Positions 1 through 55,901 of a stretch of DNA of 64,000 nt are shown here, piece after piece (position 1 is the stretch's first letter; each line of letters opens with the position of its first letter). A program made the position numbers and the translations under genes. Location: positions 1,694,001 through 1,758,000 of the forward strand of contig NZ_JBBOUI010000001.1 of the NCBI RefSeq assembly GCF_038005985.1, written 5' to 3'. Below the pieces are notes generated by a model. It was not told where the DNA came from. It saw only the letters and a list, made by a program, of their open reading frames with translations, and made no database searches. The DNA is from Solibacillus sp. FSL R7-0682. GTDB taxonomy: Bacteria > Bacillota > Bacilli > Bacillales_A > Planococcaceae.

Positions 1-440
1 AGTTCGTGTACGAAGCTGATGGAGCAAAGGTTAAATTAAAGAAAAAGGGTGGCGTTACGGAAGTCGTAGCACCTAAAAAAGAAGTAGTACAAACAGTAGT
101 AGAAAAAGTGGAAGCGGCTCCAGCACCAGTTGCACCAGCAGCTCCAGCACCAAAAGTAGAATCTCCAGCACCGGCTGCACCAGTAGCAGATACTGCAGAT
201 CTACATAAAATCACATCTCCAATGGTTGGTACGTTCTATCAAGCTCCAAATCCAGAGTCACCAGCTTACGTTAAGGTTGGCGATAAAGTGGGCGATGAAT
301 CAATCGTATGTATCGTTGAAGCAATGAAATTATTCAACGAGATTGAAGCTGAAGTTAAAGGTGAAATCGTAGAAATTTTAGTAAAAGATGGCCAATTAGT
401 AGAATATGGTCAACCTCTATTCCTAGTAAAAGCTGAATAA
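1..440 (+). CDS. accB: Biotin carboxyl carrier protein of acetyl-CoA carboxylase (5' end outside window)
   Basis: AccB carries the biotin that shuttles carboxyl groups from biotin carboxylase to the carboxyltransferase in malonyl-CoA synthesis. The frame (first full codon at base 3) is open at the window edge. The visible start [15 protein letters not shown] matches the usual internal N-terminal region, so roughly 20 codons lie upstream, and the GTG at base 6 is not the start. An Ala/Pro/Val-rich linker follows (about bases 110-190), then the biotinyl domain with the EAMKL motif; the biotin-accepting Lys codon is at 327-329. The accC ribosome site overlaps the stop. The same carrier might serve the carboxyltransferase at 50454, which has no BCCP of its own here (inference). 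Confidence 0.95.
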
Positions 441-48106: not shown

Positions 48107-48189
48107 CGGGTTTTGTAATCACTGGTCTTTGCAGTTCGGAAGTAACCTTGCTATGATAATAGGGAACTTTGAAAGGAGCTAAAAAGCTT

Positions 48190-48630
48190 ATGAATATGGA
48201 CTATGATTTATTTATGCAACAAATTACAAACACTGCTCGTGCAGAAATGGAAGCAGCAGGCTACGAACAGCTTCGCACACCAGAAGATGTAGAGGCAGCC
48301 TTTGAACGTAAAGGAACTACATTAGTAATGGTCAATTCTGTATGTGGATGTGCAGGCGGTATCGCTCGTCCAGCAGCAGGGGCAGCTGTCCACTATGACA
48401 AGCGTCCAGACCATTTAGTAACAGTATTTGCAGGACAAGACAAAGAAGCAACTGCTGCTGCACGTTACTTATTCGGTGAAGATCATATCCCATCATCACC
48501 ATCATTTGTTTTATTAAAAGATGGACAAGTAGTAGCAGAAGTAGGTCGCTATGAAATCGAAGGTCATGACCCAATGTCAGTCGTAACAAACTTACAAGGC
48601 AACTTCGAAGAATATTGCGAAGAAGTTTAA
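48190..48630 (+). CDS. brxB: Bacilliredoxin BrxB (YqiW)
   Basis: A small redox protein that removes bacillithiol from S-bacillithiolated proteins. The CGC active site (Cys52-Gly-Cys54) sits in [18 protein letters not shown], the block that defines the BrxA/BrxB (DUF1094) family, and the end NFEEYCEEV is also typical. ATG 48190 ([12 protein letters not shown], 146 aa) is chosen, with GAAAGGAG 10 bases ahead. YqiW precedes yqjA in B. subtilis as here, so it is the BrxB ortholog by position. Confidence 0.95.
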
Positions 48631-48670: not shown

Positions 48671-48704
48671 AATCACTCCTAATGAAATGGGGAGTATTTC
48701 CGAT

Positions 48705-49670
48705 ATGAAGAAATTTTCAATCGGCTATCGTACACTTAAAACGGCGCTCGGCACTTCTATTGCGATAGCGATCGCGAGCTATTTTGATCTACAATTTTTT
48801 ACTGCAGCAGGTATTTTAACAATTCTCTGCATTCAACCAACAAAACGCAAATCCGTGCATGCTGTGTATACACGCATCATATCAAGTCTTGTCGGCATGA
48901 CATATGCATTCATATTTTTCGAAATATTCGGATATTCGCCAATTGTATTAGGCATTGTCTTATTGCTCTTTATTCCAACAATTGTCTCGCTTGGAGTAGC
49001 AGAGGGCTTTGTCTCAAGTGCGGTTATTATGATGCATATATTTTTAACGGCAAACTTTACAGTGGATTTATTTATAAATGAAATTGCTTTAATGGCAATT
49101 GGATTCGGTATGGGCTTAATAGTGAATATGTATATGCCAGATATTAGTAAGGAACTAAATAATCATCGTGAAAAAATCGAACATTTATACAAAAAAATAC
49201 TAGCAGAAATTGCCAGTTATTTACGAAATGGCGATACGATGTGGGATGGGAAGGAACTAATTGAAGCGGCAAAGGTGCTGGATGCTGCAAAGGCACTCGC
49301 ATTCCAAGATGTACAAAATCACTTAACGCGTAAAGATAATATTTATTATGTGTATTTTGATATGCGTGAAAAGCAGCTAGAAATAATTGAGCGTGTACTA
49401 CCGAAAATTACTGCTTTGCCTGTAATGACCGAACAAGCACCATTAATAGCGGCTTTTTTAGAAGATGTAAGTGAGCATGTTCACTCTGGCAATACCGCCA
49501 ATCATTTCTTAGAGAAGTTGGACAACGTAAAAGACGAGTTTGCAAAGATGCCATTGCCTAAAGATCATGAAACCTTTTTAGCGATGGCAGCGATGTATCA
49601 GTTTATTGAAGAGATGGATGAATATCTAGTAATTAAACAATCGTTTAGAGGATTTAGAGGATTGAAATAA
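48705..49670 (+). CDS. yqjA: Aromatic acid exporter family protein (YqjA type)
   Basis: A FUSC-like (ArAE_1) membrane protein, predicted to export organic acids; the substrate is not known. ATG 48705 (MKKFSIGYRTLKTALGTSI, 321 aa) is chosen over an upstream in-frame start because GGGGAG lies 10 bases ahead and it gives the usual family N-terminus. Residues 10-145 hold four to six membrane helices (IAIAIASYFDLQFFTAAGIL, YSPIVLGIVLLLFIPTIVSL), and the C-terminal half is a soluble helical domain. It sits in the yqiW-yqjA order of B. subtilis. Confidence 0.88.
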   Translation: MKKFSIGYRTLKTALGTSIAIAIASYFDLQFFTAAGILTILCIQPTKRKSVHAVYTRIISSLVGMTYAFIFFEIFGYSPIVLGIVLLLFIPTIVSLGVAEGFVSSAVIMMHIFLTANFTVDLFINEIALMAIGFGMGLIVNMYMPDISKELNNHREKIEHLYKKILAEIASYLRNGDTMWDGKELIEAAKVLDAAKALAFQDVQNHLTRKDNIYYVYFDMREKQLEIIERVLPKITALPVMTEQAPLIAAFLEDVSEHVHSGNTANHFLEKLDNVKDEFAKMPLPKDHETFLAMAAMYQFIEEMDEYLVIKQSFRGFRGLK

Positions 49671-49697
49671 AAAACGGATGTTAAAATTTAACATCCG
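49667..49697 (-). terminator. Terminator of prli42 (reverse strand)
   Basis: An 11-bp perfect stem (CGGATGTTAAA at 49675-49685 and its complement at 49687-49697). Read on the reverse strand it is followed by T6 (the A run at 49669-49674). It can also serve as a convergent end for yqjA. Confidence 0.85.
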
Positions 49698-49793
49698 CTA
49701 CATGATTGCTGCGACACCCATTGCAACAGTTGAGATTAACATAATCACAACCATTGAGTAAACGACTATTTTCTGAAACTTTTTGTTGCTCAT
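49698..49793 (-). CDS. prli42: Stressosome-associated miniprotein Prli42
   Basis: A 31-codon reverse gene, too short for most gene callers. The product starts MSNKKFQKIVVYSMVVIM and continues LISTVAMGVAAIM. This is the Prli42 pattern: exactly 31 aa, a lysine-rich start and one membrane helix. In Listeria, Prli42 anchors the stressosome (RsbR/RsbS) to the membrane and is needed for sigma-B activation by oxidative stress. AAGGAGC lies 8 bases before the ATG at 49793, a promoter is visible upstream and a terminator follows the stop, so it is a complete single transcription unit. Identification is by length, pattern and position. Confidence 0.85.
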   Translation of the reverse strand: MSNKKFQKIVVYSMVVIMLISTVAMGVAAIM

Positions 49794-49824
49794 TTTTTTC
49801 GCTCCTTCATGGTGAACTAGTACT

Positions 49825-49852
49825 AGTTTATCAAATCTCAAGGAATTCTCAA
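49825..49852 (-). promoter_or_regulatory. Probable promoter of prli42
   Basis: On the reverse strand, TTGAGA (49852-49847) and TAAACT (49830-49825) are 16 bases apart, with a TGA just before the -10. Transcription would start about 25 bases before the prli42 start codon. Confidence 0.45.
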
Positions 49853-50037: not shown

Positions 50038-50451
50038 GTGGAAAAAGTAGATCACATTGGTATCGCAGTCCGCAATATAGAAGAACGGATTACATACTAC
50101 ACAGAAACGTTAGGCTTAAAATTGTTAAAAGTAGAAGAAGTAGAGTCACAGCAAGTGAAGGTAGCATTTATTGATGCTGGTAACGTGAAAATTGAACTAT
50201 TAGAGCCAATGAGTGAAAAAAGTGCAATTCATGGCTTTTTAGAAAAACGAGGAGAAGGTATTCACCATGTTGCATTTGGCGTAACGGGGATTCGTGAGCG
50301 CATGGCAGAACTTCGTGAAAAGGGTGTTCGTTTATTATCTGACGAGCCAGGTCCTGGGGCTGGTGGTGCGGAAGTAGCGTTTTTACATCCAAAGGACTCG
50401 TATGGTGTACTTTATGAATTATGTGATAAAAGCAAAAAAGGGGACAAATAA
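50038..50451 (+). CDS. mce: Methylmalonyl-CoA epimerase
   Basis: Interconverts (S)- and (R)-methylmalonyl-CoA, linking the carboxylase product to the mutase. The 137 aa VOC/glyoxalase-fold protein has the paired motifs VDHIGIAVRNIEE (metal His), KIELLEPMSEKSAI (metal Glu), GIHHVAFGV (second His) and the final GVLYELCD (Glu). It starts at GTG 50038 after AGGGGAG. Two bases separate it from the carboxyltransferase gene. Equivalent to yqjC of B. subtilis. Confidence 0.95.
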   Translation: MEKVDHIGIAVRNIEERITYYTETLGLKLLKVEEVESQQVKVAFIDAGNVKIELLEPMSEKSAIHGFLEKRGEGIHHVAFGVTGIRERMAELREKGVRLLSDEPGPGAGGAEVAFLHPKDSYGVLYELCDKSKKGDK

Positions 50452-50453
50452 TA

Positions 50454-52013
50454 ATGACAGTTACAATGGATATGTTTGACAAAATCAATGAGCTTTATGA
50501 TCGTAAGGAATTAATCCAACTAGGTGGTGGCGATTCACGAATTGAAAAGCAACATGAAAAGGGTAAAATGACAGCTCGTGAGCGTATCGAAATGTTATTA
50601 GATGAAGGTACATTCGTTGAAATTAACCCATTCATCACACACCGTACTGTAGACTTTGGTATGGAAAAATTAGAAGGACCTGGTGATGGTGTTGTCACTG
50701 GTTTTGGTAAAATTAATGGTCGTAACATTTACTTATTCGCTCAGGACTTCACTGTATTTGGTGGTGCACTTGGGGAAATGCACGCCAAAAAAATTGCAGC
50801 AGTCATGGATTTAGCAGCTAAAAACGGAACACCATTTATCGGAATTAACGATTCTGGCGGTGCACGTATTCAAGAAGGCGTACTTTCATTAGACGGCTAT
50901 GGTCATATTTTCTATCGTAACTCGATTTACTCTGGTGTGATTCCACAAATCTCAGTTATTATGGGGCCATGTGCAGGCGGCGCGGTATATTCACCAGCAA
51001 TTACAGACTTTATTTTAATGGTCGACAAAACATCTCAAATGTTCATCACTGGACCAAAAGTTATTGAAACCGTAACAGGTGAAAAGATTTCTTCTGAAGG
51101 CTTAGGTGGGTCAAAAGTGCATAATGCTATTTCGGGTAATGCACACTTCCGCGCTGAAAACGAAGAGGCGGCAATTGCTCAAATTCAGCAATTACTTTCT
51201 TACCTACCACAAAACAACAAAGAAAAAGCACCGAAGCAACTAGCTCCAGAAGGCGACAACTACCGTTCAGAGTTAGTGGATGTTGTGCCAATCGACCAAA
51301 CAAAATCTTATGATGTGCGTAAAGTTGTAGAACAAGTAGTAGATGAAGGCTCGTTCATGGAAGTTCAAAAAGAGTTTGCGAAAAACATCGTAGTAGGATT
51401 TGCTCGTATTGCTGGAGAATCAGTTGGATTAGTTTGTAACCAACCGAAATTCCTAGCAGGTGGACTTGATATCGACTCTTCTGACAAGCTAGCACGTTTC
51501 GTACGTACATGTGATGCATTTAACGTACCTGTAATTACATTTGAGGATGTATCTGGATTCTTCCCAGGAGTTAAGCAGGAGCATGGTGGTATTATCCGTC
51601 ACGGTGCAAAAATCCTTTATGCTTATTCAGAAGCAACTGTACCGAAAATTACAGTTATTTTACGAAAAGCATATGGTGGGGCATATGTTGCGTTAAACTC
51701 AAAAGCAATTGGTGCTGACTTAGTATTTGCATGGCCGAACGCTGAAATCGCGGTAATGGGTGCAGCAGGTGCAGCAAACATTATCCATGCAGGTGAAATT
51801 GCAAAATCAGCAGATCCAGAAGCAACACGTGCCGCCAAAATTGAAGAATACAAAGAAAAATTCGCAAACCCTTATGTGGCAGCATCACGTGGTATGGTAG
51901 ATGATGTAATCGACCCACGTGAAACACGTATTAAATTAATTCAAGCATTAGATATGCTATCAACAAAGCAGGAAGATCGCCCATACAAAAAACACGGCAA
52001 TATTCCACTTTGA
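50454..52013 (+). CDS. pccB: Acyl-CoA (propionyl-CoA/methylmalonyl-CoA) carboxyltransferase subunit
   Basis: The crotonase-fold carboxyltransferase of a biotin-dependent enzyme, either propionyl-CoA carboxylase or methylmalonyl-CoA decarboxylase (MmdA). The 519 aa length, N-terminal block KMTARERIEMLLDEGTFVE, the oxyanion blocks GINDSGGARIQEGV and GPCAGGAVYSPAITDF, and C-terminal RKAYGGAYVALNSK are typical. It corresponds to yqjD. No biotin carboxylase or carrier gene is adjacent and no sodium-pump subunits are present, so propionyl-CoA carboxylation is favoured, with AccC/AccB or distant subunits supplying biotin (inference). A terminator follows. Confidence 0.9.
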   Translation: MTVTMDMFDKINELYDRKELIQLGGGDSRIEKQHEKGKMTARERIEMLLDEGTFVEINPFITHRTVDFGMEKLEGPGDGVVTGFGKINGRNIYLFAQDFTVFGGALGEMHAKKIAAVMDLAAKNGTPFIGINDSGGARIQEGVLSLDGYGHIFYRNSIYSGVIPQISVIMGPCAGGAVYSPAITDFILMVDKTSQMFITGPKVIETVTGEKISSEGLGGSKVHNAISGNAHFRAENEEAAIAQIQQLLSYLPQNNKEKAPKQLAPEGDNYRSELVDVVPIDQTKSYDVRKVVEQVVDEGSFMEVQKEFAKNIVVGFARIAGESVGLVCNQPKFLAGGLDIDSSDKLARFVRTCDAFNVPVITFEDVSGFFPGVKQEHGGIIRHGAKILYAYSEATVPKITVILRKAYGGAYVALNSKAIGADLVFAWPNAEIAVMGAAGAANIIHAGEIAKSADPEATRAAKIEEYKEKFANPYVAASRGMVDDVIDPRETRIKLIQALDMLSTKQEDRPYKKHGNIPL

Positions 52014-52875: not shown

Positions 52876-53370
52876 TTACATATCTAAAGTTTGATTTGTA
52901 CTACTATTGGAATTTGCATGGTCTTCATTACCAACTATTTTTTTCACCATGTTTACAACTGATTTTATAGTTGCACCTGTATCCCAATATTCTGCTGAAT
53001 CGATATGAACTTTAATTAATGTAAGGTTAGGGTCTGTATAGTCCATGCCAAACATCTTTTCATATGCTTTATTCCAATATTTCTTCTTTCGCTCTATATC
53101 GTCAACAATTTCCGCATTACCACTTAATGAGGCGTAGGATTTGTCGGCAATAATAACGTTAACTTCATCGTTATGCTTAATTTCATCATATTTCTCGGTA
53201 TTTTTGGCTGTTAAAAACCATAAATCCCCATCAAATTCTACTTCCTGTAGTTGCATAGGGCGAGACACTAGTTTCCCTTCGTCATTAATAGTAACAAGCA
53301 TTGCTACCTTTGCATTTTCAATAATTTTTTTTAATGTTTCAAAGGCGGCTGAATTTGATTCATGATTCAT
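52876..53370 (-). CDS. General stress protein 26-like, pyridoxamine-phosphate-oxidase fold
   Basis: A split-barrel flavin-binding-fold protein of the general stress protein 26 (YdaG) type. The 164 aa product has AMLVTINDEGKLVSRPMQLQE, LWFLTAKNTEKYDEI and VNVIIADKSYASLSGNAEIV, and then a variable tail ending SSTNQTLDM. The start at 53370 has AAGGAGTG 8 bases ahead. A candidate sigma-B promoter lies just upstream, matching the sigma-B control of ydaG in B. subtilis. Molecular role unknown, perhaps flavin or heme-related stress tolerance. Confidence 0.85.
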   Translation of the reverse strand: MNHESNSAAFETLKKIIENAKVAMLVTINDEGKLVSRPMQLQEVEFDGDLWFLTAKNTEKYDEIKHNDEVNVIIADKSYASLSGNAEIVDDIERKKKYWNKAYEKMFGMDYTDPNLTLIKVHIDSAEYWDTGATIKSVVNMVKKIVGNEDHANSNSSTNQTLDM

Positions 53371-55400: not shown

Positions 55401-55787
55401 TTAATCCGTCACATTGGAAACTTTCCATGCAACGTTTGCTTTCTTCGGTTCCTTATCCAGCGGGTAATCGTGTTGCGCAATAATAAAGATGCCACCTTGT
55501 TCAATGCCGTGTCCATAATGTCTCATCTCTTCGGAAGAGAGATTCATATTACGTAAACTGATTTCATAAATATTTTGATTTAGTAAGATACTAAGCAATT
55601 GATCGAGAAAGTTACCTGCTACATGAATGTGAATATCTGTATTCATTTTTATTGATTGCAATGGGCGAATGTCCTTTGAAAAAATGTGAATGTCAAACTC
55701 AGAAAAGCCATGCCCCCTGATGATGTTTAGTTTTTCGATCGCTTCTTCAATAGAAAACACAAATGCAATTTCACGTCGATATTCCAT
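55401..55787 (-). CDS. General stress protein 17M-like (YflT-type domain)
   Basis: A small cytoplasmic protein with the general stress protein 17M-like fold: VFSIEEAIEKLNIIRGHGFSE followed by DIHIFSKDIRPLQSI. Proteins of this family (YflT, YsnF N-terminal part) belong to the general stress regulon in B. subtilis. The start is taken at ATG 55787 (MEYRREIAFVF, 128 aa) rather than GTG 55796, because AAGGAT lies 9 bases before the ATG. No clear sigma-B promoter was found. It diverges from the ATPase gene at 55902. Confidence 0.75.
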   Translation of the reverse strand: MEYRREIAFVFSIEEAIEKLNIIRGHGFSEFDIHIFSKDIRPLQSIKMNTDIHIHVAGNFLDQLLSILLNQNIYEISLRNMNLSSEEMRHYGHGIEQGGIFIIAQHDYPLDKEPKKANVAWKVSNVTD

Positions 55788-55901
55788 TTTTTTCACATCC
55801 TTATATGCTTTTAATCATTTTAATGGATTTTAAAGGGATTGGGTAGTTAATCGAAGTACGCTCCATGGTAAAATAAAGGAAAAACCGTATGGAGGATAAG
55901 A

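Follow-up and report, generated by a model that had tools for sequence, protein, structure and literature searches.

The window is a stretch of 64,000 nucleotides from the genome of Solibacillus sp. FSL R7-0682, and towards its far end it carries a very small reverse-strand gene, prli42, set between larger genes on the forward strand. The features that matter here are the following (+, forward strand; -, reverse strand):

48169-48630 (+), BrxA/BrxB family bacilliredoxin (TIGR04191, 182.6 bits), a conserved neighbour by synteny
48702-49670 (+), YqjA-like aromatic acid exporter family protein (PF06081, PF11728), a conserved neighbour by synteny
49673-49699 (-), putative intrinsic terminator, a 12-pair stem followed by a T run, beginning at the prli42 stop codon
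49698-49793 (-), prli42, a predicted 31-aa single-pass membrane miniprotein with a basic N-terminus (K4, K5, K8), matching NF033880.1
49802-49807 (-), ribosome binding site AAGGAG, 8 nt upstream of the ATG
49825-49852 (-), putative SigA-type promoter TTGAGA-16-TAAACT with an extended -10 element, a sigma-70-type match with a footprint
50038-50451 (+), methylmalonyl-CoA epimerase, mce (TIGR03081, 153.5 bits), a conserved neighbour by synteny
50454-52013 (+), MmdA-like acyl-CoA carboxyltransferase (TIGR01117, 837.6 bits, below the cut-off of 998.8), a conserved neighbour by synteny
52876-53370 (-), pyridoxamine-phosphate-oxidase-like protein
55401-55796 (-), YflT-domain protein

The prli42 open reading frame (ORF) is translated into 31 amino acids, MSNKKFQKIVVYSMVVIMLISTVAMGVAAIM, and the first-pass annotation had its coordinates, strand, length and sequence right. 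An ORF this small is no evidence in itself, 127 ORFs of at least 25 aa overlapping the 12 kb around it, so the case for a gene is carried by family match, synteny and codon conservation. The NCBIfam model for Prli42, NF033880.1, matches the product at 51.4 bits against a cut-off of 27.5, from position 1 to position 31 of its 31 positions, and finds no second match in the 4.06-Mb genome; Pfam holds no model for the peptide. The basic N-terminus leads into a single hydrophobic segment whose best 19-residue hydropathy mean, 2.42, lies at residues 9-27, consistent with the one membrane helix predicted earlier. The length of 31 residues, the end-to-end model match, the basic positions 4, 5 and 8 and the single hydrophobic segment are all shared with Prli42 of Listeria monocytogenes. 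A chance ORF is excluded by the family score, the synteny and the dN/dS values given below. Judged from its sequence, the gene is a real Prli42 orthologue, as had been proposed.

The gene lies between the YqjA-like gene and mce, where it had been placed. Several families share this arrangement, in which prli42 runs opposite to BrxB, YqjA, Mce and MmdA, and the ORF is conserved along with the order of its neighbours. The name YqjA was given by eye and has Pfam support as well. The neighbourhood varies with distance: in the four loci taken from f9 only YqjA and BrxB accompany Prli42, and in families f17, f50, f27, f39 and f19 (one locus each) the neighbour found is a MutB-type gene. None of the BrxB, YqjA, Mce, MmdA or MutB-type genes occurs in the 3 kb around prli42 in 11 f3 loci. 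A peptidase-like gene, which we take to be YqjE-like, adjoins prli42 in the three f3 loci inspected, and a similar gene stands beside MmdA in G211. The two general-stress-type genes said to lie nearby are indeed there, at 52876-53370 and 55401-55796.

The ribosome site, promoter and terminator that had been described were all found as matches. A purine-rich ribosome site also precedes most prli42 copies of the relatives. The promoter and terminator scan runs near chance (two promoter sites against 3.0 expected, one terminator against 0.6) and by itself gives neither signal any weight; the promoter is supported by a phylogenetic footprint. The upstream block ACTTGAGAA ... ATTTGnTA(A/C)ACTA is kept in the aligned loci of genera g1 (the window's genus, which is that of Solibacillus merdavium), g4, g9, g124 and g127, while the flanks vary. 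Formulated as TTGA(A/C/G)A-15..18-TAnnnT upstream of prli42, the pattern is present in all ten g1 loci, the window's included, in 8/8 of g9, 7/10 of g3, 2/2 of g127 and the single loci of g4 and g124, compared with 29 of 1680 shuffled upstream regions. It occurs in 5/13 g7 loci, in neither of two g120 loci and in none of the loci examined from other families, so that the footprint does not reach the distant families. A hairpin directly 3' of the prli42 stop codon is also formed in the four other loci of the window's genus that were folded. No SigB-type promoter was found before prli42 or its two stress-type neighbours with one simple pattern, a weak test, as the same pattern finds none before rsbV either. 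A palindrome, AACTAGTACTAGTT (49815-49828), overlaps the -10 element in the window's copy; the upstream alignment shows that some genomes of the genus do not have it.

In the literature Prli42 figures as a small membrane protein whose function, anchoring the stressosome, is settled (e.g. PMC11539335), and the curated model NF033880 is itself named 'stressosome-associated protein Prli42'. In Listeria, Prli42 is reported to tie RsbR to the membrane through K4, K5 and R8, which bind RsbR, in a contact required for stress survival (PMC6614362). Another group saw small effects on RsbR1 diffusion, found growth of a prli42 deletion indistinguishable and acid survival independent of the peptide, and proposed that stressosome components may also be localised by other membrane proteins (PMC9840623). 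Prli42 precipitates from Listeria are described as containing RsbS and three RsbR1 paralogues, and no RsbT (PMC7705745). Staphylococcus aureus is described as having neither RsbRs nor RsbS nor RsbT (PMC7522486). A search of a limited literature collection returned nothing on a stressosome in Lysinibacillus, nor on Lysinibacillus with rsbT and sigB.

The partners reported for Listeria, RsbR1, its paralogues and RsbS (PMC6614362 and PMC7705745), were not found in the window's genome, unlike the peptide itself. The RsbR N-domain, PF08678, has no match there (G000); it is present in 40/299 genomes of the class, a lower bound since the model misses some true RsbR, as in G165 (locus L086), where RsbR adjoins RsbS and the genome has no PF08678 match. 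The RsbS profile A1, which also detects RsbR-type STAS domains in other genomes, has no match at 1e-10. A genome-wide scan for STAS domains at E-values up to 1 returns four places, none of them a scaffold candidate: a SpoIIAA-like protein beside SpoIIAB- and SigF-like ones, RsbV, a 477-aa transporter-like protein and a sub-threshold ABC-transporter-like match. The names SpoIIAA, SpoIIAB, SulP-like (for the transporter) and ABC transporter are presumed ones, given by eye.

The sigB locus of the same genome reads alr-mazE-mazF-rsbT-rsbU-rsbV-rsbW-sigB-tex, where alr, mazE, mazF and tex are presumed names, given by eye. RsbT (219.2 bits) and SigB (414.9 bits) are present, as are RsbV and RsbW, RsbU keeps its RsbU_N domain, and the output arm is thus in place. 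In tblastn searches of 18 kb of this locus with two RsbR, two RsbS and one RsbX, none of rsbR, rsbS and rsbX was found; the RsbS, RsbT, RsbR and RsbX probes owe their names to position and sequence, either in loci surrounding PF08678 hits or in L086, and RsbX was sought at sigB loci only. mazF and rsbT lie some 325 nt apart, with no long ORF in between, and the gap between sigB and tex is about 120 nt. The operon shares its location between alr and tex, and the order of mazEF and rsbT-U-V-W-sigB, with the mazEF-rsbR-rsbS-rsbT-rsbU-rsbV-rsbW-sigB-rsbX operon of Sporosarcina, Kurthia and Metalysinibacillus, and differs from it in having no rsbR, rsbS or rsbX. It resembles the Staphylococcus-type operon (rsbU-rsbV-rsbW-sigB) in being without RsbR and RsbS, but still has rsbT. 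A hidden or relocated stressosome is rejected, as A1, the STAS scan and tblastn at the locus yield no scaffold. The anchor role assigned by the first-pass annotation is therefore not supported for this genome: with rsbR, rsbS and RsbR-type STAS proteins missing, Prli42, as far as the genome sequence tells, cannot anchor a stressosome here.

The loss is shared by a large group of relatives, and Prli42 has survived it. RsbS was found in 167 of 260 genomes of the window's family. The remaining 93, obtained by subtraction, are made up of every genome sampled from nine genera (g1, g3, g4, g9, g120 and g124-g127), 92 in total, plus G313 of g122; Prli42 is matched in 92 of the 93, the exception being G329. 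In the family as a whole 256/260 genomes have a Prli42 match, 254 above the cut-off; the four without one are G329, G378, G434 and G528, with completeness of 90, 81, 99 and 88%, respectively. Among named sigB loci, 17 of 80 are without rsbR, rsbS and rsbX (3 Solibacillus, 11 Lysinibacillus, 3 Caryophanon), and 62 have both rsbR and rsbS, including those of Kurthia, Sporosarcina, Metalysinibacillus and Lysinibacillus alkalisoli, the last of which retains rsbX too. Prli42 scores above the cut-off in 26 of the 27 named genomes examined (17 rsbRS-less); the miss is a 2.1-Mb Caryophanon MAG. The coordinates of Prli42 in the S. merdavium genome coincide with those in G303, a member of g1, and this ties the genus to that species. 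In one further locus, L240, on a short contig of Bacillus MAG HOT.CON.97, the 1.3 kb preceding rsbT contain neither rsbR nor rsbS and about 2 kb separate rsbT from rsbU, possibly through a further loss or a rearrangement.

A tree of RsbW, SigB and Alr (85 loci, 29 of them rsbRS-less) requires four changes to the rsbRS-less state: one in a clade of 26 tips (support 0.98), and one each in G313, G299 and G140 of family f29. The tree covers 85 of 93 loci, the other eight having no Alr, RsbW or SigB in the available stretch, and the branch of G299 could be misplaced. In G140 (L336) rsbR was not found and rsbS is cut to 75 aa, with rsbT to sigB present, a case of independent decay. Prli42 is matched in every loss line, G140, G299 and G313 included.

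Decay has gone further in some lines. RsbT was found in 73 of the 80 RsbS-less genomes searched for it (13 of the 93, ten of g9 and three of g3, being outside this search); the seven without it are G340, G386, G426 and G436 of g9 and G299, G310 and G324 of g120. In G340, G436 and G299 (L332-L334) mazF is followed directly by rsbV, rsbW and sigB, rsbT and rsbU being lost from the locus; both are also lost from the locus of G310 (L335), a genome with no SigB above the cut-off. The ATP-lid motif of RsbT (TSGGLGAGLPGVKRL in relatives) is intact in the window's genome and degraded to a varying degree in g3, for which 16 genomes were aligned (L079, L083, L085 and L314-L326), as if kinase activity were being lost there after the loss of its substrates RsbR and RsbS. 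Beyond these lines, SigB above its curated cut-off is absent in 29 of 60 Prli42 genomes, which were chosen and not drawn at random: 16 of f3, five of f37, two each of f5 and f8, one each of f6, f10 and f12, and G310 of the window's family. Prli42 is matched in every one of these 29, above its cut-off in 27; the matches of G012 and G168 fall below it, and that of G168 is doubtful. The Staphylococcus-type layout rsbU-rsbV-rsbW-sigB is seen in G104 of f9, a family whose Prli42 copies score lower.

Selection on the peptide is strong throughout the rsbRS-less group. The analysis drew on 84 Prli42 loci that were given by the search or chosen by hand, with the best scorers over-represented; identical coding sequences were collapsed, alignment was ungapped from the start codon, and two sequences were compared only if their lengths agreed to within one codon. 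Among the rsbRS-less relatives (28 distinct coding sequences, the window's included) pS is 0.68, pN 0.14 and dN/dS 0.089; in the window's genus (five distinct) dN/dS is 0.008 at a pS of 0.48. Values of 0.095 in g9 (8 distinct) and 0.032 in g3 (10 distinct) may be set beside 0.069 in the rsbRS-bearing g7 (13 distinct) and 0.145 in f3 (11 distinct), all of them rough for 31 codons and with pS near saturation in the wider sets. It is unlikely, from these values, that constraint on Prli42 has been relaxed in the rsbRS-less relatives. Positions 4, 5 and 8, at which the Listeria peptide has its basic residues, are lysine in 20/20 distinct rsbRS-less proteins and in 13/13 of g7. In f3 position 4 is lysine in 5/9, position 5 in 9/9, and position 8 is K or R in 9/9; in f9, where three of the four copies are read from a chosen GTG start, position 4 is lysine in 2/4 and positions 5 and 8 in 4/4.

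Across the class, the relation between Prli42 and RsbR runs in one direction. A Prli42 match occurs in 142/299 genomes, 119 of them above the cut-off, some of the negatives being obtained by subtraction from the matches. All 40 genomes with the RsbR N-domain have one (39 above the cut-off, G023 below), as do 102 of the 259 without that domain (80 above). The association has a Fisher p of 4e-15, uncorrected for relatedness. Genomes with the RsbR N-domain thus seem always to have Prli42, and Prli42 does not need RsbR, a one-way co-occurrence in keeping with a peptide that has its own role and is put to use by RsbR as well. BrxB, a neighbour of the gene, is present in 38/40 Prli42 genomes vs 25/40 Prli42-less ones, which rules it out as a specific partner.

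The most probable reading, at about 0.72, is that this is a genuine prli42 gene with no stressosome to anchor in this genome, kept for a conserved, stressosome-independent role at the membrane, likeliest as a docking peptide. Strong selection in the rsbRS-less group, together with retention after the further losses of rsbR and rsbS, makes such a role the best explanation. The gene would be read from its own housekeeping-type promoter into a 31-aa single-pass membrane peptide, its lysine-rich tail probably in the cytosol. What remains of the system here is the rsbT-U-V-W-sigB output arm, rsbX being missing from its usual place. In its likeliest form, the basic tail of a small docking peptide would meet an acidic surface on another partner, a second one besides RsbR; in Listeria-type bacteria the RsbR N-domain would be among the clients of this tail. 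We know of no partner or phenotype for such a role, and none emerged from the present genome comparisons. Several points weigh on the other side: the link between Prli42 and RsbR is real, the N-terminal lysines may be kept only for membrane topology, some f3 and f9 copies have no basic residue at position 4, and the promoter footprint stops short of the distant families. A wider reading has about even odds: Prli42 would not primarily be a stressosome protein at all, its Bacilli-wide function would be independent of both the stressosome and SigB and exerted via another partner, and RsbR binding would be a secondary use of the basic tail.

The alternative that survives best, improbable as it is, has Prli42 hold the remaining SigB arm at the membrane through RsbT or RsbU, so that stress signals still reach SigB by way of the peptide. 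The window's genome does keep rsbT with an intact ATP lid, and rsbU with RsbU_N; yet Prli42 persists in G340, G436 and G299, whose locus has lost rsbT and rsbU, and in the 29 chosen genomes that have no SigB above the cut-off, and the Listeria report on anti-Prli42 precipitates describes them as free of RsbT (PMC7705745). That Prli42 anchors a stressosome built from a scaffold too diverged to detect is very unlikely: in its favour, the peptide and its RsbR-binding positions are unchanged, but the genome has only the four STAS places, the short mazF-rsbT stretch leaves no long ORF, and rsbX, which serves RsbR and RsbS, has gone from the locus as well. It is equally hard to credit that the gene is a relic which chance, or hitchhiking in a conserved locus, has preserved, for although one old loss explains most rsbRS-less loci (26 of 29 tips in one clade), the promoter is kept and synonymous sites have diverged far (pS 0.48 and 0.68) while the protein has barely changed.

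The preferred reading, a stressosome-independent membrane role, has consequences beyond this genome. Prli42 has repeatedly outlived the complex it is named after, under strong selection, so that 'stressosome-associated' misleads as a name in many genomes, and a second function can be tested directly. If the reading is right, that function stands isolated in Solibacillus and most Lysinibacillus, which amount to natural rsbR-rsbS knock-outs and no longer have rsbX at its usual site. An independent role may also bear on the differing Listeria reports (PMC6614362 vs PMC9840623). The stepwise series, in which rsbR, rsbS and rsbX are lost, the RsbT lid is degraded, rsbT and rsbU are lost and finally sigB is lost, offers natural material on SigB control in cells that have no stressosome.

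A separate pattern is seen in family f11. RsbS scores at least 150 bits in 48 genomes of the class, 41 of which have Prli42; the seven that do not (G011, G066, G116, G127, G160, G181 and G192) all belong to f11, and have strong RsbS and RsbT with neither the RsbR N-domain nor Prli42. Their stressosome perhaps uses another kind of sensor or anchor.
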